A DNA stretch of 64,000 nucleotides from Verminephrobacter eiseniae EF01-2 (lineage in GTDB: Bacteria > Pseudomonadota > Gammaproteobacteria > Burkholderiales > Burkholderiaceae_C). The stretch's first letter is position 1, and the number at the start of each line of letters is the position of its first letter. Of the stretch, positions 48,223 through 60,739 are shown piece by piece. Both the position numbers and the translations under genes were made by a program. The notes beneath the pieces were generated by a model, which ran no database searches, was not told the origin of the DNA, and was given only the letters and a program-made list of their open reading frames with translations. Location of the stretch: the NCBI RefSeq assembly GCF_000015565.1, contig NC_008786.1:4080501-4144500 (forward strand), given 5' to 3'.

Positions 48223-48483
48223 AGTTTCTGGAACTCGCCGCGTAGCAGCGCGACGACCTCGGCGAGGTTCAGCGCCTTTAGTCGATTCTTTTTCAGGAAG
48301 GCGGCCCATTACCTTTGCTTGGCGGCATCCTGCACGAATGCATCGCTCAAGCCCGAGGGGAGGGTGCTGGGCATCGCCAGTTTCCGTCGATCGAACGTGG
48401 TCTCGACTGCGCGGCGCAATTCGGCGGTTTCCAAAACATCCTCGGTCAGCAGTATCCAGAGATCGAAGTAGTCCTTCATGCGG
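48213..48483 (-). pseudogene. C-terminal remnant of an AbiEii toxin
   Basis: A leftward frame RMKDYFDLWILLTEDVLETA, TFDRRKLAMP, FVQDAAKQR, then an in-frame TAA at 48309-48311, then WAAFLKKNRLKALNLAEVVA. This is the C-terminal third of AbiEii/AbiGii-family nucleotidyltransferases. The 5' side is cut by the ISAs1 end at 48484 and the expected upstream part is not on the other side of the insertion sequence. Confidence 0.65.
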
Positions 48484-49621
48484 CAGGGCCGGAGCATCAA
48501 AGTTTGTTTACATTCAACGACTTACGATAAGCCGTTGTAAAAGCGGCTCAGAAAAAATCGTGTCTACTCTTGGGTTTCAGGAGCAAGAGATGGCGGAGAA
48601 AGACACGATAGAAGAGCTCATCGAGCAGTTGCGCCAGTTGAAGGACCCGCGGGTCGAGGGTCGCACCGACCACAACCTGCTCGACATACTGGTTTTGGCA
48701 CTGTGCGCGGTCATGTCAGGGGCACAAGGGTGGGATGACATTGAAGATTGGGGGCGAGCGCGCGAAGGCTGGCTGCGTCGCTATCTGAAACTGCGCAACG
48801 GCATTCCCGGGCCCGACACCATCCGTCGGGTATTTGAGGCGCTCTCGCCAAGGCAGTTGTCGACCTGCTTGAGTTCCTGGATGGCGCCAAGTCTGTCCTG
48901 CGGTGGGTGGCCTGGTCATCGCCATCGATGGCAAGAGTCTGCGCGGGGCGGCACGTCCGGCCTGCGGGTTGCGCGCACTGCATCAGGTATCGGCCTACGC
49001 CGCCGAATATGGCCTGACGCTGGGACAATTGGCCTGCCAAGAAAAGTCCAACGAAATCACGGCCATTGGCGAGTTGCTGCCAACGCTGGCGCCCGAGGGA
49101 GCGGTTGTCACCATCGATGCCATCGGCTGCCAGAGCGCGATTGCCGAGCAGATCGTGGACGGTGGTGGCGATTACGTGCTTGCCGTCAAGGACAACCAAC
49201 CACATCTGGCCCACGCCTTGCGCGACTTCTTTGGCACGCTCGACGCGCCCGGCGACCCGGTCAGACAGACCTGCGTGCATGAAACGCTGGACAAGGGCCA
49301 TGGCCGCATTGAAACCCGTCGCTGCACGGCGGTGGGCGATCTGGATTGGCTGGCTACCCTGGGGCTCAAGGAACGCTGGAAGAAGCATTGAAAATGGCTT
49401 GCACTGGTGCCTGGATGTGACCTTTGGAGAGGACGCCTGCCCCATCCGGCTACGCAATGCCGCACTCAACTTCTCATTGCTGCGCCGTGCCGCCATGAAC
49501 CTGTTTCGTGCTGACCACTCTCGCGCCATGAGCCTGCCAAAAAAACGCAAGGCCGCTGCCTGGAACCCGGACTACCGCGCCAATATCCTTCATCTGCGGG
49601 AAATTTGATGCTCCGGCCCTG
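48484..49621 (+). mobile_element. ISAs1-family insertion sequence (defective)
   Basis: Inverted ends CAGGGCCGGAGCATCAAA at 48484 and its complement ending at 49621. The enclosed transposase is of ISAs1 type. I find no matching target duplication beside the ends, so flanking DNA has been rearranged since insertion. Confidence 0.8.
48590..49608 (+). pseudogene. ISAs1-family transposase, frameshifted
   Basis: Three segments in different frames: MAEKDTIEELIEQLRQLKDP with LLDILVLALCAVMSGAQGWD (from 48590), IAIDGKSLRGA with VVTIDAIGCQSAIAEQIVDG and GGDYVLAVKDNQP (about 48910-49391), and SIENGLHWCLDVTFGEDACP (about 49391-49608). The catalytic DDE core is split by frameshifts near 48890 and 49385, the latter with loss of an internal stretch. 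Inactive. Confidence 0.85.
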
Positions 49622-49727
49622 CTGGCACTGGCTTCGTTCGCCAACTTTACTTTGATTTGTGAGAGAATAGATCTAGTCCAACCATGTTTTTGGTTTTATT
49701 TATACAAATCAATGAGTTAAGGAAGTG

Positions 49728-50891
49728 ATGGGCGAAATGAAGGAAGAGCAATCAGATTTAGCCCAGATGGTTCGCTTGGCTCTGACCGAGCAGACGGAAG
49801 ATGTGCGCCTGTTCGCGGCGCGGCTGGTCCGCAAGTACCGTGGGACGGCGCCCGACCTCGCCGAACAGCTCAAACTGTTCCTGAAGTCGAAGCCGGCACG
49901 CAGAGTTTCTCCCATGCGCAAGCTGTCGCCCCAGCCGTCGGCGACCCACGCCTTGCCGGTAGACGACGAATCCCGCCTCTCGCTCCTGAAGGTGTTCAAG
50001 GACACGCCGACGAAAGACGCGCCGCTGCTGTCCAGCGATGTCGAGGATGTCTTGGGACAACTCATCGCCGAGCGCCGGCAGAGTGATCGGCTGCGGGCCA
50101 TGGGGCTGACGCCGACCCGCTCAGCCATCTTTGTGGGGCCGCCTGGGGTGGGCAAGACGCTTACGGCCCGCTGGTTGGCTACGCAGTTGAAGGTGCCGCT
50201 GTACGTGCTCGACCTGACCGCCGTGATGAGCAGCCTGCTGGGCAAGAGCGGCGCCAACCTGCGGGCGGCCATCGACTTCGCAAAGCGCGAGTCCTGCGTG
50301 CTGCTGCTGGATGAGATCGACGCTATTGCCAAGCGGCGCAGCGATGACACCGACGTGGGCGAACTCAAGCGCCTGGTCACGGTGATCCTGCAGGAGGTCG
50401 ACGAATGGCCTTCCAGCAGCGTATTGCTGGCGGCCACCAATCACCCGGAGTTGATCGATCCGGCGTTGTGGCGCCGTTTCGACTTGGTGGTCCAGTTCAA
50501 GACACCCGATGAGCAGGCCCTCAAGGAAGCCGTCAAGCGCTTCCTCGGACCGGACTACGCCCTCTTTGCGCGCTGGATCGACATCCTGGTGTTTGCATTC
50601 GCCGGGCACTCGTTCAGCGACATCGAGCGCGATGTGCAGCGCTTCCGGCGTGCCGTGGCTCTGGGCACGACCACCGACGCCGACTTGGTCGAGGACTTTA
50701 TGAAGGCACGCGCCTTGGCGCTCGACAGGCAGGGCCGCATCGATCTGGCGGTGATGCTTGCCAAGCAGACCCGCTTGTCCCAGCACACCGTCTCCGACAT
50801 CACCGGGGTGAGCCGGGACACGATCCGCAAGTACACCAACGAGACACCTGCGGCACGAAAGGCCGCGCCCCGGAGAAAGGCTGACGCATGA
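49728..50891 (+). CDS. ietA: IetA-like AAA+ ATPase
   Basis: A 387-residue AAA+ protein: helical N-terminus, Walker A GPPGVGKT (about residue 140), Walker B LLLDEIDAI, sensor 1 AATNHPE, arginine finger RRFD, and a C-terminal helix-turn-helix-like segment (VSDITGVSRDTIRKYTNE). Paired with a subtilase it matches the IetAS module, first described as a plasmid toxin-antitoxin pair on Ti plasmids and later as an antiphage system. GGAAG precedes ATG 49728; ATG 49737 is an alternative. First gene of a rightward run of eight. The upstream 100 bases are AT-rich and likely hold the promoter. Confidence 0.85.
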   Translation: MGEMKEEQSDLAQMVRLALTEQTEDVRLFAARLVRKYRGTAPDLAEQLKLFLKSKPARRVSPMRKLSPQPSATHALPVDDESRLSLLKVFKDTPTKDAPLLSSDVEDVLGQLIAERRQSDRLRAMGLTPTRSAIFVGPPGVGKTLTARWLATQLKVPLYVLDLTAVMSSLLGKSGANLRAAIDFAKRESCVLLLDEIDAIAKRRSDDTDVGELKRLVTVILQEVDEWPSSSVLLAATNHPELIDPALWRRFDLVVQFKTPDEQALKEAVKRFLGPDYALFARWIDILVFAFAGHSFSDIERDVQRFRRAVALGTTTDADLVEDFMKARALALDRQGRIDLAVMLAKQTRLSQHTVSDITGVSRDTIRKYTNETPAARKAAPRRKADA

Positions 50892-53110
50892 GCCAAACCA
50901 ATTTCCTGATCGGTCGTGGCGAACTGCTGACCCATGACATCGTCGGCCCGAGACGCATGCCCGGCAAGGCCGAGGTTTACACCTTCGCGCAGGCGCGGGA
51001 ACGAATGGTTCCTCAGTTTCGAAGTGCCGCCAAGGCGCTGGACGAACTGCCTGCTGATGCCTGTCCGGGCGACTTCGCAGTGGCCCGGCTGATGATGAAC
51101 CCCAGTTTCATCGCTCGTTCCTACTTCCCGACCGGGCTGTTGCGCAGTACGGGGCTGGAGTCCATCGGCAGCCGCACCGTCAAGGTCAAGCCGCAGGCCT
51201 GGACCCGCAAGGGGCAGCCGCAGGAGACCACAACGACCGAGCTGTTCGTCGCCGGCAAGCGCCAAGCCTTCCGTAAGCTCTCGCAGTGGACGGAAACCAT
51301 CGACGCGCAGTCCGACGAGGGCGAAGACCTGACCCACATCGAACAGTTTGCCGCGTTCGCGGCGGCCGAGCGCATCGTGAACCTGGGCGGCCCAAAGGAT
51401 CGCTTCTTCGAGGTGGGCTTGCATTTGTTGCCGGACGAAGATCCTGGCCTGATCCAGAGGGCCTTCGTGAAGTTTGCCAGGCGGGAGGAGGTCAAGGTCC
51501 ACACTGAAGTCGACTTCGTCGCAGGCAACCTGTGGTTTGTGCCGGTCGAGGGCAAGCCGCGCGAAGTCGAGAGGCTGGCCGGCTTCGCCTTCGTCCGGGT
51601 GATCCGGCCGGTGCCCAAGCTGCGCGGCATTCGCCCGTTGCAACGCAGCGGCGGCCCCTCGGTGGGGTGCAGCCTTCCCACCGAGCAGGCCCTGTCGTCC
51701 GAGCCTCGAGTCGCCATCCTGGACGGCGGCCTCCCAAAGCACCACCCCATCGGTCCCTGGCTGCACTTATACCGCAAGCTCGACGAAGATGCCGCCGATG
51801 ACCCGGACGGCCCGGAGCACGGTCTGGGCGTGACATCGGCCGTGCTGTTCGGCCCGATCCAGCCCAACGGGATGGCCGGCAGGCCTTTCGCACCGGTGGA
51901 CCATTTGCGCGTGCTCGACCAAGATTCGAGCGGCGAAGACCCGCTGGAGTTGTATCGCACGCTCGGTCTCATCGAACAGGTTCTGCTGTCGCGATCCTAT
52001 GAGTTCATCAACCTGAGCTTGGGGCCGGACCTGGAGGTTGAGGATCAGGAAGTTCATGCTTGGACATCCGTCATCGACGAACTGCTCAGCGACGGCGACA
52101 CGCTCATGACCGTGGCTGTGGGCAATAACGGAGAACGCGACCGCGAACTTGGTTACAGCCGTGTGCAGGTTCCGTCGGACTGCGTGAATGCGCTCTCGGT
52201 CGGCGCAGCCGATGACACGGGCACGGGTTGGGCTCGCGCGCCCTACAGTGCGATCGGGCCAGGCCGCAGCCCCGGTGTCGTCAAGCCGGACCTGATGGCC
52301 TTCGGCGGCAACCCGGCGTCCAAATACTTCCACGTCCTGGCGCCGAACGCGAGGCCGGTGCTGACGCCCCAACTCGGCACCAGCTTTGCGGCGCCGTACC
52401 TGCTGCGCAGTGCTATCGGCATCCGTGCAATCCTGGGCGGCAACCTGACGCCTCTCGCCATCAAGGCCTTGCTGGTCCATGCGGCCGATCCCGGCGAGCA
52501 TGATCCGATCGAAGTTGGCTGGGGCAAGATTCCCGAGGACACCCTGGACATCATCACCTGCCCGGATGGCGTGGCCCGGGTGGTCTATCAGGGCGAGCTC
52601 AAACCCAGCAAATACCTGCGCGCCAGCTTGCCGCTGCCGAAGGAGGGTCTGACGGGCAATGTTCGCATGAAGGCCACCTTCTGTTACGCATCTCCTACTG
52701 ATCCGCAGGATGCCGCGGCCTACACCAAGGCCGGTCTCGAAGTTGTCTTCCGTCCCAACGACGAGAAGATCAAGGATGGCAAGAGCAACGCCGACACCAA
52801 GGGATTTTTCGACCTGAAGAAGTTCGCCACCGAGCAGGAGCGCCGCTCTGATCAGGGCAAGTGGGAAACCGTGCTGCACGGGGCCAAGACCTTCCGTGGT
52901 TCTAGCCTCAAGAACCCCGTATTCGACATTCACTACAACGCCCGCGACGGCGGCGGCCGGGCCACTGGTCCTGAGAAGATCCGCTACGCATTGATCCTCT
53001 CGGTCGAAGCCCCGAAGCACGCCGATCTCTACAACGAGATCCTGCGCACCTATGCCAAGACCCTCGTGCCGATCCAGCCGCAGGTGTCCTTGCCGATCCG
53101 CATCCGGTGA
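50888..53110 (+). CDS. ietS: IetS-like subtilisin-family serine protease
   Basis: A 740-residue protein, without signal peptide, so intracellular. The S8 catalytic triad is visible: Asp in VAILDGG (about 279), His in EHGLGV (about 311), Ser in LGTSFAAP (about 499), plus the oxyanion Asn in AVGNNGE. The N-terminal 270 residues are a family-specific domain, and a beta-rich domain follows the protease. Its ATG overlaps the ietA stop by 4 bases. By analogy the AAA+ partner restrains or directs the protease; the protein target is unknown. Confidence 0.87.
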   Translation: MSQTNFLIGRGELLTHDIVGPRRMPGKAEVYTFAQARERMVPQFRSAAKALDELPADACPGDFAVARLMMNPSFIARSYFPTGLLRSTGLESIGSRTVKVKPQAWTRKGQPQETTTTELFVAGKRQAFRKLSQWTETIDAQSDEGEDLTHIEQFAAFAAAERIVNLGGPKDRFFEVGLHLLPDEDPGLIQRAFVKFARREEVKVHTEVDFVAGNLWFVPVEGKPREVERLAGFAFVRVIRPVPKLRGIRPLQRSGGPSVGCSLPTEQALSSEPRVAILDGGLPKHHPIGPWLHLYRKLDEDAADDPDGPEHGLGVTSAVLFGPIQPNGMAGRPFAPVDHLRVLDQDSSGEDPLELYRTLGLIEQVLLSRSYEFINLSLGPDLEVEDQEVHAWTSVIDELLSDGDTLMTVAVGNNGERDRELGYSRVQVPSDCVNALSVGAADDTGTGWARAPYSAIGPGRSPGVVKPDLMAFGGNPASKYFHVLAPNARPVLTPQLGTSFAAPYLLRSAIGIRAILGGNLTPLAIKALLVHAADPGEHDPIEVGWGKIPEDTLDIITCPDGVARVVYQGELKPSKYLRASLPLPKEGLTGNVRMKATFCYASPTDPQDAAAYTKAGLEVVFRPNDEKIKDGKSNADTKGFFDLKKFATEQERRSDQGKWETVLHGAKTFRGSSLKNPVFDIHYNARDGGGRATGPEKIRYALILSVEAPKHADLYNEILRTYAKTLVPIQPQVSLPIRIR

Positions 53111-53164
53111 CGGTGGAAGGGCAAACGTATGTACAGAACGGACTGACGGGAAAGGAGGAGATCG

Positions 53165-53944
53165 ATGCCGGAACCGTTGAAGAGCAAAGACAAACACGGG
53201 GCGCCGTTCACACGGCCGCCCGAGATCGAGGCATCCTTGGGAAGGCTGGAGGCGGTCGATGCTGCGGCACGCCTGCAGGCCTTCGCTGTCGCGTCGAGGA
53301 AGAGCAGCGGCTATGTGCCGTCGGAAGCGCTGACGTATTTCCTGCGGCGTGCCTGGGCTGCCGATGCCCGGGACGAGTTCAAGCAGATCTTCGAACTGCT
53401 CATGAAGCGCGTGGAGCAGTCCCTGTATTCAACGGTCGCCGACTCCCGCATGACTGGGGCGCAAGGCATACGCGAAGAGATCATGGGCCGCTTCGCCGAG
53501 CGAATCGCCAAGGACTGTCAAGGCCGCTTCGCCATGCTGGACTTCTTTGAGGTGCGGTTCGACCTGGCATTCGCCCGATTCCGCAAAACCGTGCTGAGGC
53601 AGATTGGTCCGGCCTCGGTTCTTACCGTGCCGCTGTCCACGGATGGCGATGAGGGTCAGGACATTTCTCCGGAGGTCGAGGCAGCAGCGGCCGACTTCCT
53701 CGGAGGTGACCCTCAAAAAATTGACGATCCGGCTTTCCGGTTGGAGTTGGATGCTGCGATTGATGCGTTACCAGATGATCAAAGACGGGTCGTGGGCTTG
53801 CTGCGGCAAGGTTTCCAGATCGACTCAAAGGACTCGAACATCATGACTATCGCCAAGATGCTGAAGTGCGATGAAAGAACCGTACGGAATCGCCGCGACC
53901 GTGCATACAAGACCCTCAGGTCTGCTCTGCAGGAGGACGCATGA
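53165..53944 (+). CDS. Sigma-factor-like protein
   Basis: A 259-residue protein. Residues 195-255 (AIDALPDDQRRVVGLLRQGF, MTIAKMLKCDERTVRNRRDR AYKTL) are a region 4 helix-turn-helix of sigma-70 type. A helical middle part (EIMGRFAERIAKDCQGRFAM, FEVRFDLAFARFRKT) could be a divergent region 2. AGGAGG precedes the ATG. It overlaps the next gene by 4 bases, a common layout for sigma/anti-sigma pairs. Possible role: switch-on of the cassette itself; inferred. Confidence 0.65.
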   Translation: MPEPLKSKDKHGAPFTRPPEIEASLGRLEAVDAAARLQAFAVASRKSSGYVPSEALTYFLRRAWAADARDEFKQIFELLMKRVEQSLYSTVADSRMTGAQGIREEIMGRFAERIAKDCQGRFAMLDFFEVRFDLAFARFRKTVLRQIGPASVLTVPLSTDGDEGQDISPEVEAAAADFLGGDPQKIDDPAFRLELDAAIDALPDDQRRVVGLLRQGFQIDSKDSNIMTIAKMLKCDERTVRNRRDRAYKTLRSALQEDA

Positions 53945-54534
53945 GCACTTCAAAGCCGTTCGCCGCGGACGAGGAATCCGTGCTGATGGCGTTCTCAATG
54001 GAGCCCAGCCATGGCCGGGAAACGCTTGTGCGTTACATCAAAGAGTACCCGCAGCACGCGACTGCGCTGATCGACTGTTCGATCGATCTGCGTCATGAGC
54101 CACCGGCGGAAGATGTCCCGGCGACCGTGGTGCCGGACAGTGCGGTGGACAAGGCCTGGCAGCGGTTTGAGCGGGCTGTCCAGCAGCTCGACGTGGAGGT
54201 CGCGAACCCCTTCGCCAAACTCAATACGAGCGGCTTCAAGTCGCTCGCACGCAGCCTGGATGTCAGCAATCTCTTTCTGATGCGCGTGCGTGATCGAGCC
54301 ATCAGTGCTGCCACCATCCCCGCCCGATTCATCGAGAAGCTTGCGTCGGAGTTGGGCGCCACAGCGCAAGCTGTGGCTGCGTACCTGCAGGGTCCACCGG
54401 GCATGGTCTCCGGACATGCCTTTCGGTCCAGCGTGAAGCCGAGCGTGGGTGAACAGATCACTTTCGACCATGCGGTTGCGACTTCTCAGTTGACGCCGGA
54501 ACAGCAGGCGACGCTGAAGGCGTTGTCGGACTGA
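53941..54534 (+). CDS. Hypothetical partner of the sigma-like protein
   Basis: A 197-residue soluble protein with no membrane segment. FKSLARSLDVSNLFLMRVRD and IPARFIEKLASELGATAQAV resemble a helix-turn-helix of the XRE/IrrE-associated type in its second half. It starts inside the stop of the sigma-like gene and ends 3 bases before the ImmA-UvrD gene. ImmA-type proteases usually cleave a helix-turn-helix repressor encoded next door, so this is the natural substrate candidate. Confidence 0.6.
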   Translation: MSTSKPFAADEESVLMAFSMEPSHGRETLVRYIKEYPQHATALIDCSIDLRHEPPAEDVPATVVPDSAVDKAWQRFERAVQQLDVEVANPFAKLNTSGFKSLARSLDVSNLFLMRVRDRAISAATIPARFIEKLASELGATAQAVAAYLQGPPGMVSGHAFRSSVKPSVGEQITFDHAVATSQLTPEQQATLKALSD

Positions 54535-54537
54535 GCG

Positions 54538-57500
54538 ATGGACGCCACCGAGGCCGCTCGCCGGGAAGCAGAACGTCTGCACCGGGCGAACGTCGCGGCC
54601 GGCGGCGATCCGACCCGACCTCTGGCGTTTGCGCTTCGGGAGGCCACGGGTTGCGGCTTGGATGTGTACGCGCTGCAAGAAGGAGATCCACAGCTCAAGG
54701 GAGGTAAAGCCACCTTCGACAGTCAGGCTGGATGCATCCTCTACGAGGATTGCGGATCGGACTTCGAGCGCGCCTTCTTGATCGCACATGAACTCGGCCA
54801 TGTCGTGCTGGAAGGTGGCACGCTGGACGTGGTGACGGTGGACGTCGAGCCCGACCGATCGATGGAGGACGCGCCGGTCGGTGTCGATCGCGTTCTTGAC
54901 TACGGGGCGCGCGAGCGACGTGAGGTAAAAATGGACCTCTTCGCGCGCGAGTTCCTGCTGCCGCGCCCTGTCTTGCGCGAGTTGCATGTCGACGAAGGGC
55001 TGACATCCGACGCGATCGCGATGCGCTTCGGCGCGCCGCGCGTCGTGGTACAGCAACAGTTGCTGGATGCATTGCTGCTGCCACCCGCCGAAGAGCCGCA
55101 CCCCGTGGGCGCAGTCGCGGTGGCAGGCCCGCTCACCCCTGACCCCACGCAGGCTCAGGCGGCCGCACATCGTGGCTTGGCGTTCCAACTGCAGGCAGGG
55201 CCCGGTACCGGCAAGACGAGGACACTTGTTCGTCGCATCGAAGGGTTGCTTGCGGACGGCGTCGATCCAACCACGATTCTTGTCCTCACCTTCTCCAACA
55301 AGGCGGCCAATGAACTGTGCGAGAGGATTGCCGCCAGCAATCCTGTCGCGGCGGCGGCGATGTGGATCGGCACATTCCACGCATTCGGCCTGGACATCGT
55401 TCGCCGTTTTCACGACCGACTGGCGTTGCTGCCGGACCCAAGGTTGATCGACCGGACGGAGGCCATTGAACTCCTGGAGGACGAGTTTCCGCGGCTCGAC
55501 CTGAAGCACTATCGCAACCTCTGGGATCCGGCCCTGGATTTGAGCGACATGCTGAGCGCCATCTCGCGCGCCAAGGATGAGGTTGTCGATGCTGCGGGCT
55601 ATCGCGCCCTCGCGCAGTCGATGGCTGTCCGGGCGGGAACCGACCAGGACGCGAAGGTCCGCGCGCAGAAGTGCCTGGAGGTCGCCACGCTCTTCGAGGC
55701 ATACGAGCGGCTGTTGACCGTGCACCAGTTGTTGGACTTTGGCGACCTGGTTGCGCTGCCGGTCCGTCTGGTGGAGGGCAGCGCCGAGGTCAGGGACGCC
55801 CTGCGTGCTCGCCATGAGCACGTGCTGGTGGATGAGTACCAAGACGTGAACCGCGCCTCGGTGCGGCTCCTGAAGGCCATCGTCGGCGACGGCCGCAACC
55901 TGTGGGTCGTCGGTGATGCACGCCAGTCCATCTACCGCTTCCGCGGCGCCTCTGCGACGAACATCGCGCGCTTTGCGATCGACTTCCCCGGCGCGCAGGC
56001 CGCACAGCTGGGCGTCAACTATCGCTCCGACGAGCGCATTGTCGATGTTTTCACCGAGTTCGCGCGCGGTATGCGGGCATCCAGCGGAGCTTTGCCGCTG
56101 AAGCTGACGGCTGACCGCGGCACCGAAGGAGACCGGGTAGAGCTTCGCGTTGCTGACTCGGCTGACGACGAAATCTCCGCGCTTGCCGCGTCGATTACCG
56201 CCTTGCACGCGCAGGGCATTCGCTACGGTGGCCAGGCGGTGCTGTGCGCGTCCAACGCGCGCCTGAATGCCATTGCCGAAGGTCTTGAGGCCAGAGGCAT
56301 TCCCGCGCTGCACCTGGGTAGCCTGTTCGAGAGGCCAGAAATCAAGAATCTCCTGGCCTTGCTGTCGCTGGCGACCGACCCGCGAGCCGCCGCGATGGTG
56401 CGCGTGGCAACCACGGCCCGGCATCAAATGCCGCTGCAGGATGTCATGCGGGTCATCGAGCACCTGCGAGCGGCGAATCCGGCCTCGCTGGCATGGTCGG
56501 CCATGCATGCCGAGGTGGACGGCCTGGCAGATGACACTCGGGAAGCACTCTCGCGCTTGTCCACGCTTTTCGCGGGCGTGAGCGCATCGACGAACCCCTG
56601 GACTCTGCTAGCCGGATGGACGATAGATGGTCTCGGACTCGCGAAGACGCTGTATCAGGCTGATGATGCGCAGAGCCGCATGCAAGGTCTGGCCATCTGG
56701 CAGTTCCTGAACTTCTGTCGCCGGCAACCAAGAGGTCAGGGCGTGCCAGTGCTTCGGCTGCTTGATCGCATCCGGCGCCTGGTGCTGCTCTCGGAGGATC
56801 GTGGCTTGAGCCAGCTGCCCCGCAGCGCCGAGAGCATCGACGCAGTGCGCCTGATGACGATCCACGGAAGCAAGGGGCTGGAGTTCGATGCCGTTCATCT
56901 GCCGGGCATGGTGACGTCCGGCCTGCCGCGCAACAACGTGCCGCCGCGTTGTCTTCCACCGGATGGCCTAATCCATGGCTCGGAGGGCCTGACCGGCATT
57001 GAGGCCGTGAAGGCCGGCCATGACGAGGAAGAAGAGTGCTTGTTCTTTGTCGCGCTCTCGCGAGCGCGCGATAGGTTGCTGTTGTATTCCTACGCCAAGC
57101 AGGCGGATGGACGTGCGCGCAGCCCCTCCAGATTCGTCGCCCCGATCGAGCGATTCCTCGCCCGCCCTGCCTTCGTGCCGTTGCGAGCCGGCCCGCCATC
57201 GACGGGCGTGCCGCTTTCCATCACATGGCAAGGGCGTCCTCAATGGACCGATATCCAGGTCAACCTCTTCGAGCGTTGCCCGCGCCGTTTCCTGTACACG
57301 CACGTGCTGAGGCTGGGCGGTCGGCGAACCGAAACGGCGTTCATGAAGATGCACAACGTCGTGAACGATGTGTTCGAGTGGCTGAAGCGCGAGCACGAGA
57401 CGACGAGTCCAACCGTCGACGAGTTGGCGGCGCGCTTCGAGGAGGCGTGGCGCTCCAAGGGAGCGGCGGAGCATGGTTACGCGGAAGACTACCGGCGCAT

Positions 57501-57966
57501 CGGCAGACGGCTCGTCGACTTTCTCATCGAGAGCCGCAGCCGTGGAGTATCCGCGCCGGCATCTCCGATTTCGTTGGGGTGGGCCGAGGGCGAGATCCTT
57601 GTCAGCCCCGACGGCGTGGCCCGCGGAGACGGCGGCCGCGTCACGGTGCGACGCGTCAAGACGGGCAAGCAGCGATCGAACGCCTTCGATGACATCGAGT
57701 ACACGGTTCTTCATCTCGCTGCCGTCCAAGCCTACGGCCCGCATGCGCAAGTCGAGGTGACCTACCTGACCAGCGAAACCATCCAGCCGATGGAGATCTC
57801 CTCGCGCAAGTTGGAGACCAGGCGCGAGAAGCTGCGGTCCTTCCTTCAGGCGATGCAGGCTGGGCAGTTCCCGGCGAAGCCCGAGGCGCGCAGCTGTCCG
57901 CGCTGCCCGAGCTTCTTCCTCTGCGGCGACTTGCCCGGAGGGGCGTGGGTGCAAGAAAAACTTTGA
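54538..57966 (+). CDS. ImmA/IrrE metallopeptidase - UvrD helicase - Fe-S nuclease fusion
   Basis: A 1142-residue fusion. Residues 1-190 are an ImmA/IrrE zinc peptidase with HELGH at 84-88 and FAREFLLPR. A full UvrD/Rep helicase follows: Walker A AGPGTGKT (about 220), motif II VDEYQDV (about 430), motif III region GDARQSIYRFRGA, TIHGSKGLEFD and motif VI VALSRARDRL. The C-terminal 230 residues resemble the AddB/Cas4-type nuclease: FERCPRRFLY (about 911) and SCPRCPSFFLC (about 1119-1129) give four cysteines for an iron-sulfur cluster. The usual acidic residue before K in the D...ExK core appears replaced (TVRRVKTGK), so nuclease activity is doubtful. Confidence 0.85.
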   Translation: MDATEAARREAERLHRANVAAGGDPTRPLAFALREATGCGLDVYALQEGDPQLKGGKATFDSQAGCILYEDCGSDFERAFLIAHELGHVVLEGGTLDVVTVDVEPDRSMEDAPVGVDRVLDYGARERREVKMDLFAREFLLPRPVLRELHVDEGLTSDAIAMRFGAPRVVVQQQLLDALLLPPAEEPHPVGAVAVAGPLTPDPTQAQAAAHRGLAFQLQAGPGTGKTRTLVRRIEGLLADGVDPTTILVLTFSNKAANELCERIAASNPVAAAAMWIGTFHAFGLDIVRRFHDRLALLPDPRLIDRTEAIELLEDEFPRLDLKHYRNLWDPALDLSDMLSAISRAKDEVVDAAGYRALAQSMAVRAGTDQDAKVRAQKCLEVATLFEAYERLLTVHQLLDFGDLVALPVRLVEGSAEVRDALRARHEHVLVDEYQDVNRASVRLLKAIVGDGRNLWVVGDARQSIYRFRGASATNIARFAIDFPGAQAAQLGVNYRSDERIVDVFTEFARGMRASSGALPLKLTADRGTEGDRVELRVADSADDEISALAASITALHAQGIRYGGQAVLCASNARLNAIAEGLEARGIPALHLGSLFERPEIKNLLALLSLATDPRAAAMVRVATTARHQMPLQDVMRVIEHLRAANPASLAWSAMHAEVDGLADDTREALSRLSTLFAGVSASTNPWTLLAGWTIDGLGLAKTLYQADDAQSRMQGLAIWQFLNFCRRQPRGQGVPVLRLLDRIRRLVLLSEDRGLSQLPRSAESIDAVRLMTIHGSKGLEFDAVHLPGMVTSGLPRNNVPPRCLPPDGLIHGSEGLTGIEAVKAGHDEEEECLFFVALSRARDRLLLYSYAKQADGRARSPSRFVAPIERFLARPAFVPLRAGPPSTGVPLSITWQGRPQWTDIQVNLFERCPRRFLYTHVLRLGGRRTETAFMKMHNVVNDVFEWLKREHETTSPTVDELAARFEEAWRSKGAAEHGYAEDYRRIGRRLVDFLIESRSRGVSAPASPISLGWAEGEILVSPDGVARGDGGRVTVRRVKTGKQRSNAFDDIEYTVLHLAAVQAYGPHAQVEVTYLTSETIQPMEISSRKLETRREKLRSFLQAMQAGQFPAKPEARSCPRCPSFFLCGDLPGGAWVQEKL

Positions 57967-57981
57967 CCGGCCTTTCCGGTC
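57965..57981. repeat. Small hairpin at the 3' end of the helicase gene
   Basis: GACCGG, loop CCTTT, CCGGTC, at the stop codon. No T-run. The arms equal the outer six bases of the element's palindrome. It lies in the largest gap (99 bases) of the eight-gene run, so a second promoter may start here. Confidence 0.5.
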
Positions 57982-58065
57982 TGGCTTTGGGCTGCGATTG
58001 ACTGAGTAAGGAGGCCAGAAAGCCTGCAATCCAGCAGGTGATGGCTCCCCAAGAAAGGCAATCAA

Positions 58066-58995
58066 ATGCAAACCAAAACCCACAACGGCGATGACCGTTC
58101 CGATGTCGAAGATGTCGCGGCGGCGATCCGCGAAGGCCGCAGCCTGCGCGCGGCGGCGCTCTACCGGATCGTCGTCTTGGACGACCAGCTCAATGAGCGC
58201 AACATCGATCTCACCGATCCGGTGCCGACCGCGCGCCAGATCCTCCAGGCCGCCGGCTTGCGCCCGGGCGACGGCTACAGTGTCTACGCGATCCTGACCT
58301 CCGGCGAGTTCGAGGACCTGCGCCTGGACGAAACCTACGATCTGCGCGGCCGCGGCGCGGAGCGCTTCGTCATCTTCCAGACCGACCGCTCGTTCAAGTT
58401 CACGATCGACGACCGCCAACTGGAGTGGGGCAAGCCCAGCATCAGCGGCCGCGTGCTCAAGGCGCTGGCCGGCGTCCCGCCGGAGACCTACGACGTCTAC
58501 CTCGAAGTGCGCGGCGGCGGTCAGGATGTCCTGATCCGCGACGGCGACCTGATCGATCTGGGCAAGCCGGGCATCGAGCGCTTCATCACGCTGATCCGAG
58601 ACACCACGGAGGGCCTGCTCGCGCTGCCCGACGCGGACGAGCGCTATCTGAGCAGCCACGGCGTGGTCTTCGAGACAGTGAGCGACGGTGCGCACACGGG
58701 CGTCATCTTCAAGCAGCTGCCGCTGCCCGCCGGAAAGTTCAACCACGCCGCGGCCGACGTGCTCGTTCTCCTGCCGCCCGGCTATCCCGATGTCGCGCCG
58801 GACATGTTCTATTGCGACCCCTGGCTGACGCTGCAAAGCGTGGGGCGCTGCCCGACCTGCGCCGACCAGGCCCACGCGTTCCAGGGTCACAGCTGGCAGC
58901 GCTGGTCGCGCCACAACACGGCGTGGCGGCCGGGCATCGACGGCCTGCACACCATGCTCAAGCGCATCGAGCACGCCATGGCGGAGGCGAAGTGA
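58066..58995 (+). CDS. Poly-ubiquitin-like / E2-like fusion protein
   Basis: A 309-residue protein. Two beta-grasp, multiubiquitin-type domains at about 30-105 (YRIVVLDDQLNERNIDLTDP, then GDGYSVYAILTSG) and 105-185 (FTIDDRQLEWGKPSISGRVL, YDVYLEV) precede an E2-like domain from about 190 (FKQLPLPAGKFNHAAADVLV, LPPGYPDVAPDMFYCDPWL, SRHNTAWRPGIDGLHTML). In known bacterial operons these parts are often separate genes. The only Cys near the E2 site is in MFYCDP and is not a conserved catalytic position, so the E2 may be non-catalytic. Ribosome-binding site AAAGG precedes the ATG. Confidence 0.83.
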   Translation: MQTKTHNGDDRSDVEDVAAAIREGRSLRAAALYRIVVLDDQLNERNIDLTDPVPTARQILQAAGLRPGDGYSVYAILTSGEFEDLRLDETYDLRGRGAERFVIFQTDRSFKFTIDDRQLEWGKPSISGRVLKALAGVPPETYDVYLEVRGGGQDVLIRDGDLIDLGKPGIERFITLIRDTTEGLLALPDADERYLSSHGVVFETVSDGAHTGVIFKQLPLPAGKFNHAAADVLVLLPPGYPDVAPDMFYCDPWLTLQSVGRCPTCADQAHAFQGHSWQRWSRHNTAWRPGIDGLHTMLKRIEHAMAEAK

Positions 58996-60401
58996 TGTCG
59001 GCGGCTGCTCTGGACATTGTCTTGCTGGAGCCGCACGAGGCGGCCCTGCGCTCGCTGCTGCACAGGGATGACGGGGCCGAGGCGTCCGCCTATGTGCTGT
59101 TCGGCAGGGCCGACATCTCGGCAGACCCCTGGTCGGGCCTGCCCCGCGCCAGGCTGATCTCGCACGAGGTCATCCCCGTCGCGGCCGATGAGATGGTCTC
59201 GGCATCCCCGGTCCACGTCACGTGGTCCACCCGAGGCTTCATGCGCGTTCTCGGCGTCGCGAAGGAACGCGGCTTGGTCGCGGGCCTGGTGCACACGCAT
59301 CCGAACGCGGCAGCGTTCTTCTCCGACCAAGATGATCGAAACGAGGCAGAGCTGGCCCGGACGACGTTCAACAAGGGCGTTTCCGGCCTGGCCAGCATGG
59401 TTTTCGGCCGCGACGATGCTATGGCGGGCAGGCTCTGGATCGCACCCGGCGAGACCGTCACAGCCTCATCGATCTCGCTGGTAGGCAGCCAGATCAAGAT
59501 CGCCCGCGCGGAAGCGGCAGCTGACGAAGGCCAATTCCTGGCGCGGCAGGCCGCGCTCTTCGGCCGCGGGTTCAATACAGTCGTGCGCGGGCTGCGGGTC
59601 GGCGTCGTAGGGGGCGGCGGCACGGGCAGTGCTGTCGCGATGCTGTTGGCGCGACTGGGCGTCGGCTTTCTGGGGCTAATGGACAAAGACACCATCGATG
59701 TCACCAATCTCAACCGCGTGCATGGCTCGCGTGCCGCGGACGTTGCCGCCGGCCTAGCCAAGGTGGACATCCTCGCGCGCGAGACTCGCGCGGCGGGTCT
59801 CGGCACCCAGGTCGTCACCAAGAAGGAATGGGTCGGCCACCCTGATCTGCGCGACCTGCTGCGCTCCTGCGATGTGCTGTTCGGTTGTACCGACGACCAT
59901 CAGGGGCGGCTGACGCTCAACCGCCTGGCGCACTACTACGGCATCCCGCTGATCGATGTCGGCCTGCGCATGCGCGCGGCACGCAGTGGCGCGGACTTCG
60001 ACATGACGGGCCGCGTGTCGATGATTCGCCCCGGCAACCCTTGTCTCATGTGTCTGGGGGTGGTCGATACTCGCCGCGCTGCGGCCGAAGGGCTCCGGCG
60101 CAGCGACCCGGCCGAGTTCGAGCGGCGTAAGGCGGAAGCCTATGTGGATGGCGGCGGCGACCCCTCGCCCGCCGTGGTCACGTTCACCACTGCCATCGCC
60201 TGCGCGGCCGTCGATGAGCTCATTCAGGGCCTGACCAGCTTTCGCGGCCCCGGGGGCATGACACACAACAGGATTCGCCGCTTCGACCGCGTGGAAGATC
60301 GTTCCATGACCTGCCGACCTGTCGCTTCTTGCCCGGTTTGTGCCAGCCAGGCGAGCTGGGGGCGCGGCGATGTCAACCCTTTCCTCGGCGTGATCGGATA
60401 A
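58995..60401 (+). CDS. JAB peptidase - E1/ThiF fusion
   Basis: A 468-residue protein. The N-terminal JAB/MPN domain has a perfect H-x-H-x7-S-x2-D motif (HTHPNAAAFFSDQD, about residue 99), so it should be a zinc deubiquitinase-like peptidase. The E1 domain has the nucleotide loop GVVGGGGTGSAVA (about 204), DKDTIDVTNLNR, and a Cys candidate in NPCLMC (about 350). E1 activates ubiquitin-like C-termini as adenylates; JAB removes or trims them. Its ATG shares one base with the previous stop. Confidence 0.9.
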   Translation: MSAAALDIVLLEPHEAALRSLLHRDDGAEASAYVLFGRADISADPWSGLPRARLISHEVIPVAADEMVSASPVHVTWSTRGFMRVLGVAKERGLVAGLVHTHPNAAAFFSDQDDRNEAELARTTFNKGVSGLASMVFGRDDAMAGRLWIAPGETVTASSISLVGSQIKIARAEAAADEGQFLARQAALFGRGFNTVVRGLRVGVVGGGGTGSAVAMLLARLGVGFLGLMDKDTIDVTNLNRVHGSRAADVAAGLAKVDILARETRAAGLGTQVVTKKEWVGHPDLRDLLRSCDVLFGCTDDHQGRLTLNRLAHYYGIPLIDVGLRMRAARSGADFDMTGRVSMIRPGNPCLMCLGVVDTRRAAAEGLRRSDPAEFERRKAEAYVDGGGDPSPAVVTFTTAIACAAVDELIQGLTSFRGPGGMTHNRIRRFDRVEDRSMTCRPVASCPVCASQASWGRGDVNPFLGVIG

Positions 60402-60403
60402 CC

Positions 60404-60739
60404 ATGAAGCGACTTATCGCGCGCGCGCTGCGCCGGCTCGGGTGGCTGCGCTACGACCTGCTCATTTCTCCGGTCGCGCAGCATCCGGGCAAGAACGCCG
60501 TGCCGCCGGGCGAGCTGTGGCTGGTCATCGACACCGGCGTCAAGAAGTGGGCTTGCATGAGCTGCCCGGGCGGTTGCGGGGTGCAGATCGCGCTTTCACT
60601 TAACCCGGATCGACGGCCTCGCTGGTCTGTTGAAACAGACTTCTGGGGGCGTCCCACCGTGTCGCCTTCCATCCACCAGCATCGGGCATGTTCCTGTCAC
60701 TTTTGGGTGAAGAAGGGCGTGATCGAGTGGTGCCGGTAA
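60404..60739 (+). CDS. DUF6527 metal-binding protein
   Basis: A 111-residue protein starting 2 bases after the E1 stop. It has CMSCPGGCG and CSCHFW clusters and PRWSVETD...PSIHQH, the conserved blocks of DUF6527, a predicted zinc protein that regularly accompanies JAB-E1 ubiquitin-like operons. Its exact part in conjugation is unknown. An IS4-type element follows 31 bases downstream. Confidence 0.8.
   Translation: MKRLIARALRRLGWLRYDLLISPVAQHPGKNAVPPGELWLVIDTGVKKWACMSCPGGCGVQIALSLNPDRRPRWSVETDFWGRPTVSPSIHQHRACSCHFWVKKGVIEWCR

Follow-up and report, generated by a model that had tools for sequence, protein, structure and literature searches.

Among known bacterial regulators, M78-family proteases adjoin XRE-type proteins in the IrrE/PprI-DdrO and ImmA-ImmR switches, DdrO being the substrate of IrrE, and extracytoplasmic function (ECF) sigma factors form gene pairs with anti-sigma factors. 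Bub operons, or operon type 6e, encode multiple ubiquitin-like (Ubl) domains, an E2-like domain, a JAB-E1 fusion and a small metal-binding protein, as set out in sections of PMC1779556. Passages of PMC13373217 describe DNA-damage-sensing regulators (CapH+CapP, CapW/BrxR and CapK+CapS) before Bub operons and those of the cyclic-oligonucleotide-based antiphage signaling system, with CapW or CapH+CapP in 219 of 544 Bub operons and CapK+CapS in 59 of 544; CapP is given there as a protease that is activated by single-stranded DNA and cuts the repressor CapH, and Bub operons as not yet shown to protect against phage. We analyzed a 64,000-nucleotide stretch of the Verminephrobacter eiseniae EF01-2 genome (NC_008786.1, positions 4,080,501 to 4,144,500; the window), which carries eight genes in a row: an IetAS-like pair (genes 1 and 2), a sigma-like gene (gene 3), gene 4, an ImmA-helicase fusion (gene 5) and a Bub-type arm (genes 6 to 8). 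Sequence comparison suggests that genes 3 to 8 are, on balance, probably one inducible immune (or DNA-stress) unit, in which genes 3 to 5 would be the switch, the arm its output and IetAS a separately promoted partner.

The locus shares features with each of these systems. As in ECF sigma/anti-sigma pairs, gene 3 has a predicted sigma2 + sigma4 fold and an overlapping downstream partner gene, but here the partner is XRE-like, an ImmA protease comes next, and the sigma gene itself contains a promoter-like copy. The M78 protease beside an XRE-type protein recalls IrrE/PprI-DdrO and ImmA-ImmR, and DdrO is among the fold matches of gene 4; the extra helical N-terminal part of gene 4, the sigma partner and the helicase fusion are the differences. 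The arm resembles that of Bub operons in its multi-Ubl protein, E2-like domain, JAB-E1 fusion and small, putatively metal-binding protein, but here it is preceded by the sigma factor, gene 4, the ImmA-UvrD fusion and a DNA element that we call element E2; the terms "sigma factor," "UvrD" and "IrrE" do not occur in the searched text of PMC1779556 (Iyer et al. 2006). The nearest precedent is CapH+CapP which, like its counterparts in the passages of PMC13373217, is placed ahead of Bub operons; release from a repressor is what those passages describe, whereas a dedicated sigma factor and a helicase-fused protease are found here. No paper among the matches listed in the open-licence literature described the gene combination, of which an earlier description is possible, and DUF6527 gave no match in the same literature.

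An earlier note on this stretch had described eight rightward genes in a fixed order and proposed a search for that order elsewhere. The reading frames bore out the description, all eight lying on one strand their junctions ranging between overlaps of 4 bases and a gap of 99 bases. Scanning genome contigs with a sigma alignment returned 40 loci, 32 of which (L010-L041) have gene 4 after gene 3; the other 8 share weak sigma similarity only. The complete eight-gene order was present in 16 of the 32 (L010-L014, L017, L019-L022, L025, L026, L029, L031, L032 and L034). Since the same order recurs in these other loci, the arrangement is more than chance and the note's own refuting condition, that the blocks occur together only here, fails. 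Contig ends cut seven loci (L015, L023, L024, L027, L035, L037 and L040), and gene 5 was mostly or wholly lost in three (L016, in which the arm and ietS are broken too, L018 and L033); L013/L015, L025/L040 and L038/L041 are near-copies. The carriers include beta-, gamma- and alphaproteobacteria and Acidobacteria. When Multi_ubiq was searched in 398 Pseudomonadota genomes, 15 had a match (13 above the cut-off), and genes 3-4-5 stood directly upstream in 6 of the 14 uncut Multi_ubiq loci (the window, L058, L062, L063, L068 and L070). Gene 4 had seven matches in 399 genomes of the order, with a Ubl-type pathway next to it in all seven; three of these contigs had already been counted (L072 = L027, L073 = L025, L074 = L031). 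The adjacency of genes 3, 4 and 5 followed by a Ubl-type arm was seen from three search anchors, and the sigma-like gene preceded gene 4 in each core locus seen.

Element E2 consists of TTWCCGG, a 15-16 base spacer and CGATT. By one rule, 34 of 35 sigma-bearing loci have it ahead of the arm, versus 0 of 11 arm loci without the sigma gene; no E2 match occurred anywhere in those 11, among which L080 showed only an E2-like protein domain. Strict matches numbered 56 in 0.84 Mb, two strands counted, with at most two per locus, and the half-sites are conserved and the spacer variable. The element is retained in the gap between genes 5 and 6 where gene 7 is only ~26% identical (L021, L022 and L025) or a different type of arm follows (L030); in Acidobacteria it takes the form CTTACCGGT...GCGATTA. 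In its own genome the sole perfect match at each spacing (N13 and N14) was the cassette's own copy. An exact scan of the 399 genomes of the order matched four, the same four that carry a close gene 4, with none in the backwards control and none in three more distant gene-4 genomes (G039, G303 and G485). The loci are related and so are not independent trials. E2 is a two-part, promoter-like element whose presence before the arm goes with the sigma gene regardless of the type of arm, and by this a sigma-plus-conjugation unit is well supported. For transcription from E2 by the gene 3 product, the distributions are indirect support.

The internal copy of E2, in gene 3, has a spacer one base longer than the upstream copy. 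Among 60 near-constant degenerate columns in 35 gene-3 sequences, the three lowest codon entropies fell at R192 (CGG, 34/35), A198 (GCG, 33/33) and I199 (ATT, 35/35), the next value being 0.49 on a 0-1 scale; exceptions to the internal half-sites were L012, L058 and L062. By this sequence measure, the codons under the internal copy have lost synonymous variation. At position 4 the two copies of the element agree, having either T or A. The upstream copy has a hairpin with an internal loop on its 3' side (z <= -2.0 in 23/30 loci), with stems that differ in sequence and are alike in form in distant loci; behind the internal copy it was found in 4/31 loci only (L017, L021, L030 and L032). The leader RNA gave nothing above cut-off against Rfam. 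Phage-borne cassettes were considered and rejected: one viral contig (L050) carried partial genes 3 and 4, and the 12 viral stretches with exact E2 matches, none of which matched genes 1-8, were taken as chance.

We compared pairwise gene distances among 13 distinct complete loci, leaving out those with divergent arms, for which gene 6 coverage was too low. The distances of genes 3 to 8 correlated at 0.91-0.99 and those of genes 1 and 2 at 0.96. Between the two sets the correlation was 0.66-0.74 with L020 and 0.88-0.95 without it, and in the 12 distinct loci that remain without L020 all eight genes correlated at 0.88-0.98. The low between-set value is due to L020 alone; therefore, IetAS travels with genes 3 to 8 inside the clade, with one swap. 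The reading that the two sets are plainly separate units (between-set 0.70-0.76) was cut back, since the L031 contig had been counted twice and L020 drove the low value.

Conservation of residues was counted over alignment rows, of which the distinct ones number 32 for IetA, 28 for IetS, 31 for gene 5, 34 for gene 7 and 22 for gene 8. By single sequence, gene 3 reached 24.2 bits with Sigma70_r4_2, under the cut-off of 25.7; its predicted fold contains both sigma2 and sigma4 domains, with ~50 N-terminal residues outside the match. The assignment as a sigma factor is thus weak by single sequence and firm by predicted fold. Gene 4 has a predicted XRE-like helix-turn-helix (HTH) domain at residues 88-153, after a helical N-terminal part, and DdrO is one of its low-Z fold matches; gene 4 is thereby a candidate anti-sigma factor and/or repressor and a candidate protease substrate. 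Gene 5 keeps HExxH and the helicase motifs in 36/36 rows and the Fe-S cysteines in 35-36 of 36, and has strong UvrD/PcrA and GajB profile matches. At what we take to be the position of the D/E-x-K motif the acidic residue is missing in 36/36 rows, unlike in an active Cas4/AddB-like nuclease. Retention of HExxH together with loss of the nuclease acid fits a sensor role. An M78 protease with HExxH thus adjoins an XRE-type HTH protein, as in switches of the CapH/CapP (ImmA-HTH) type. In L016, L018 and L033, gene 5 is gone or a remnant only, and genes 3 and 4 and the E2 pair persist.

Relatives of the switch were also seen beside other arms. In L076 (G485:C48, 6752-10979), a distant sigma and gene-4 pair lies directly before a different Ubl-like set, which comprises a Ubl-like frame (judged by eye), DUF7665, a sub-threshold JAB-like frame and a 461-amino-acid protein, with no ImmA-helicase; such pairs may regulate Ubl pathways more widely. 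In two of the 11 arm loci without the sigma gene, L064 and L079, an Xre-HTH + M78 pair stands divergently beside the arm and, by analogy, appears to be the switch logic of genes 3 to 5 in another form.

Genes 6 to 8 form an arm with multi-Ubl, E2-like and JAB-E1 parts, which is the composition of Bub (type 6e) operons. In the Protein Data Bank (PDB), gene 6 matched Ubl-BilA (8u38, E 6e-34; the chain matched by its Ubl part was named BilA by the depositors), multi-ubiquitin (9d5b, E 7e-34) and BubB (9eae, E 2.5e-11), and gene 7 matched BubCD (9ea4, E 7e-34) over residues 13-418. The JAB residues H101, H103, S111 and D114 are kept in 38/38 gene 7 rows with >=75% coverage. Gene 8 keeps C54, C58 and C96 in 24/24 rows; measured against C-x3-C-x35-38-H-x2-C, the three cysteines are present in 24/24 and the histidine in 8/24, and in the window 34 residues intervene. 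Arms have been exchanged too: gene 7 is only ~26% identical in L021, L022, L023, L025, L027, L032 and L040, in which gene 5 is still ~70% identical; in L030 the arm consists of one small frame, a JAB below threshold and an E1-N/ThiF protein; and L058 and L075 have an E1 with DUF6791 instead of JAB. The slot downstream of gene 5 is conserved while its content is exchanged. A 91% identical fragment of the arm, which reaches only from within gene 6 to gene 8, lies on the conjugative multi-resistance plasmid pKAZ5 (KR827394.1; L009 20001-22431), where it adjoins an efflux-transporter frame.

IetAS is a defense pair of adjacent AAA+ ATPase and S8 protease genes, and genes 1 and 2 are alike in this adjacency and in their active-site residues. 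IetA K144, D196, E197, R250 and R251 are kept in 35/35 rows and T145 in 33/35, and the D279, H311 and S499 triad (D/H/S) of IetS in 31/31. They differ in that they are joined in order to genes 3 to 8 and score far under the NCBIfam equivalog cut-offs (233.7 of 510 bits for IetA and 108.5 of 900 bits for IetS); the pair is therefore a relative of IetAS and not the characterized equivalog. Upstream of ietA lies a second element, E1, which passed a strict rule in 20 of 23 IetAS cassette loci (the exceptions being L018, L020 and L024) and was found once in the window at <=2 mismatches versus 0.05 expected. It sits ~50-60 bases 5' of ietA in cassettes and stand-alone pairs and resembles an extended -10 promoter with a conserved TCC block; it is probably the IetAS promoter region. 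We rejected E1 as a sigma-specific promoter, since it is also present upstream of two stand-alone pairs, L103 and L104 (73-74% identity), in genomes without a gene-4 match. An IetA scan of the 399 genomes gave 22 matches at E 1e-40 or better, of which six had at least 73% identity: the window, G735, G605 and G545 in gene-4 genomes, and G466 and G766, which stand alone. The pair is absent from 6 of 30 sigma-anchored loci that have the upstream side (L028, L030, L036, L038, L039 and L041) and from 7/7 further core loci (L058, L062, L063, L068, L070, L075 and L077). In L020 it was swapped (~75% identity to the window's pair versus 82-95% for the other genes of L020), and in L032 its place is taken by a strongly divergent pair (35 and 24% identity). 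In L028 (134-4221), an N6/N4 DNA methylase and a type III restriction-like helicase replace it upstream of the sigma gene. By these comparisons, IetAS accompanies the unit steadily inside one clade but is not an obligate part of it.

The observation in the earlier note was thus confirmed, and its interpretation partly supported, with genes 3 to 8 as the core. One regulated system is probable for these genes, in which E2 before the arm goes with the sigma gene; IetAS, whose distances track the rest without L020, does not belong to it obligately, its close relatives standing alone with the same E1. The single operon that the note had called apparent is doubtful, because conserved promoter-like elements precede both ietA and gene 6, and a picture with two or more promoter regions should take its place. 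Across the block, 2 sigma-70-like promoters were found versus 1.6 expected. Proteolytic release of the sigma factor, also proposed there, is plausible given the predicted fold of gene 4, although the cleavage itself is conjectural.

The gene order, its recurrence, co-evolution, the distribution of E2 and its codon-level constraint are seen in the sequences themselves; every molecular step (cleavage and promoter activity among them) and the role in phage defense are inferred. In resting cells, gene 4, made with the sigma factor from overlapping frames, would silence the sigma factor and/or the promoter. The UvrD/Fe-S part of gene 5 would bind abnormal DNA, for example the ends or single strands left by phage or damage, and so activate the fused ImmA protease, which would cut gene 4. 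The freed sigma factor would bring RNA polymerase to E2, where the upstream copy would fire the arm and the internal copy would re-make genes 4 and 5, giving amplification and shut-off. IetAS would be a separately promoted defense pair that was recruited in front and then retained in one large clade. Phage as the cue is a guess, and general DNA damage is equally possible. We propose more tentatively, at a little short of even confidence, that this is a new class of immune switch, in which a helicase-fused ImmA destroys an XRE-type anti-sigma factor on foreign or broken DNA and frees a private sigma factor for two E2 copies, the sole perfect targets found for it in the genome, of which the one within the sigma gene would re-arm the switch.

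Other readings of the same genes were weighed against this scheme. Gene 4 could be a CapH/DdrO-like DNA-binding repressor with E2 and the hairpin-forming sequence as its operator, so that ImmA cleavage derepresses the arm and the sigma factor merely assists. The XRE-like fold with DdrO among its matches, the inverted repeat immediately behind E2 and the Xre+M78 pairs beside two other arms agree with such a repressor, but E2 is two-part with promoter-like spacing, the hairpin is missing 3' of the internal copy in 27/31 loci, and the sigma-like gene comes before gene 4 in every core locus seen; we consider this reading unlikely, and the repressor and sigma-release readings can both be partly true. 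That IetAS, an ImmA-helicase system and a Bub operon are chance neighbors in a defense hotspot is in keeping with the neighboring conjugation genes and transposase and with the separate element of IetAS, its swap in L020 and its absence from other lineages. Conserved order and spacing in 16/32 loci, the co-evolution of genes 3 to 8 (and likewise of IetAS without L020) and the tie of the sigma factor to the arm through E2 largely refute this for genes 3 to 8, and make it quite improbable. It is still less probable that gene 5 acts as the effector in its own right, as a helicase-nuclease resembling Gabija or AdnAB whose dose is set by the sigma factor. Its UvrD/PcrA and GajB matches, PDDEXK_1 match and Fe-S cysteines would suit that role, but it lacks the D/E-x-K acid in every row and is lost in 3/32 loci with genes 3 and 4, the arm being intact in L018 and L033. 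We give the least credence, and very little, to E2 as a site of recombination or gene conversion for arm swapping instead of a promoter: most sigma-bearing loci have two copies and the upstream one sits at the arm-swap junction, but the spacings of the window's two copies differ by one base and the half-sites are conserved where the spacer is not. Excision between the copies as the cause of gene 5 loss was rejected because L018, which is without gene 5, keeps both.

Several observations weigh against a sigma-driven unit of genes 3 to 8. L018 and L033 have no working gene 5 but retain genes 3 and 4, two E2 copies and the arm, which the sensor model leaves unexplained; they may be decaying loci. 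L076 has weak relatives of genes 3 and 4 before a Ubl-like set, without gene 5 and with no E2 seen, and L068, the most distant locus, has an E2-like upstream copy by a looser rule only and none in gene 3. The fold matches of gene 4 are weak. The Fisher p of 9e-10 for the association of E2 with the sigma gene ignores the relatedness of the loci, the near-copies L025/L040 and L038/L041 are among those counted, and the T/A agreement between E2 copies is a single change on the tree. At two mismatches, the own genome has 2 more N13 and 6 more N14 matches, with 0 in the N14 backwards control.

The coordinates are collected below. Pfam cut-offs were exceeded by AAA, Peptidase_S8, UvrD, Peptidase_M78, PDDEXK_1, Multi_ubiq (twice), Prok-E2_E, Prok-JAB, ThiF and DUF6527, and the first codon of ietA is uncertain (GTG 49725, ATG 49728 or ATG 49737).

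Features of the cassette (window coordinates) and of two related pairs (coordinates of their loci)
Feature	Position	Strand	Evidence or form
Gene 1, ietA-like AAA+ ATPase	49725-50891	+	PADLOC IetA 272 bits
Gene 2, ietS-like S8 (subtilisin) protease	50888-53110	+	Pfam Peptidase_S8 72 bits; PADLOC IetS 148 bits
Gene 3, two-domain (sigma2 + sigma4) ECF-like sigma factor	53165-53944	+	Weak profile; predicted fold
Gene 4, helical N-terminal part and predicted XRE-like HTH domain	53941-54534	+	Fold; no family by profile
Gene 5, ImmA/IrrE (M78) protease-UvrD helicase-Fe-S/PD-(D/E)XK-like fusion	54538-57966	+	Pfam Peptidase_M78, UvrD, PDDEXK_1
Gene 6, two Ubl domains fused to E2-like domain	58066-58995	+	Pfam Multi_ubiq x2, Prok-E2_E
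Gene 7, JAB deubiquitinase-E1 fusion (BubCD-like)	58992-60401	+	Pfam Prok-JAB, ThiF; PDB
Gene 8, DUF6527, zinc-binding-like	60404-60739	+	Pfam DUF6527 82 bits
Element E1, upstream of ietA	49659-49679	+	RTGAGANAAT-N5-TAGTCC type
Element E2, internal copy inside gene 3	53733-53762	+	CTTTCCGGT-N14-GCGATTG; ~180 bases 5' of gene 4
Element E2, upstream copy before Ubl arm	57972-58000	+	CTTTCCGGT-N13-GCGATTG
Leader hairpin with internal loop, 3' of upstream E2 copy	58010-58048	+	
Xre-HTH + M78-like pair, L064	10471-11342	divergent	M78 by Pfam
Xre-HTH + M78-like pair, L079	5711-6654	divergent	M78 by own profile only, E 2e-4

The window is part of the large contig of a 5.6 Mb genome and lies beside conjugation genes (TrbI, CagX, TrbE-like and PilS). 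A Tn5-like transposase frame lies immediately 3' of gene 8, and frames that resemble, by eye, a broken insertion-sequence transposase lie just 5' of the cassette (48338-49608). In L032 (12253-13771), AbiEi/AbiEii toxin-antitoxin genes are found directly 3' of the cassette.

For the triggering of bacterial ubiquitin-like pathways, the unit offers a concrete proposed trigger chain and a candidate promoter sequence. If the proposal is true, this would be an immune system under the control of a sigma factor of its own, in which one block unites protease, sensor and effector and a coding sequence also serves as promoter.

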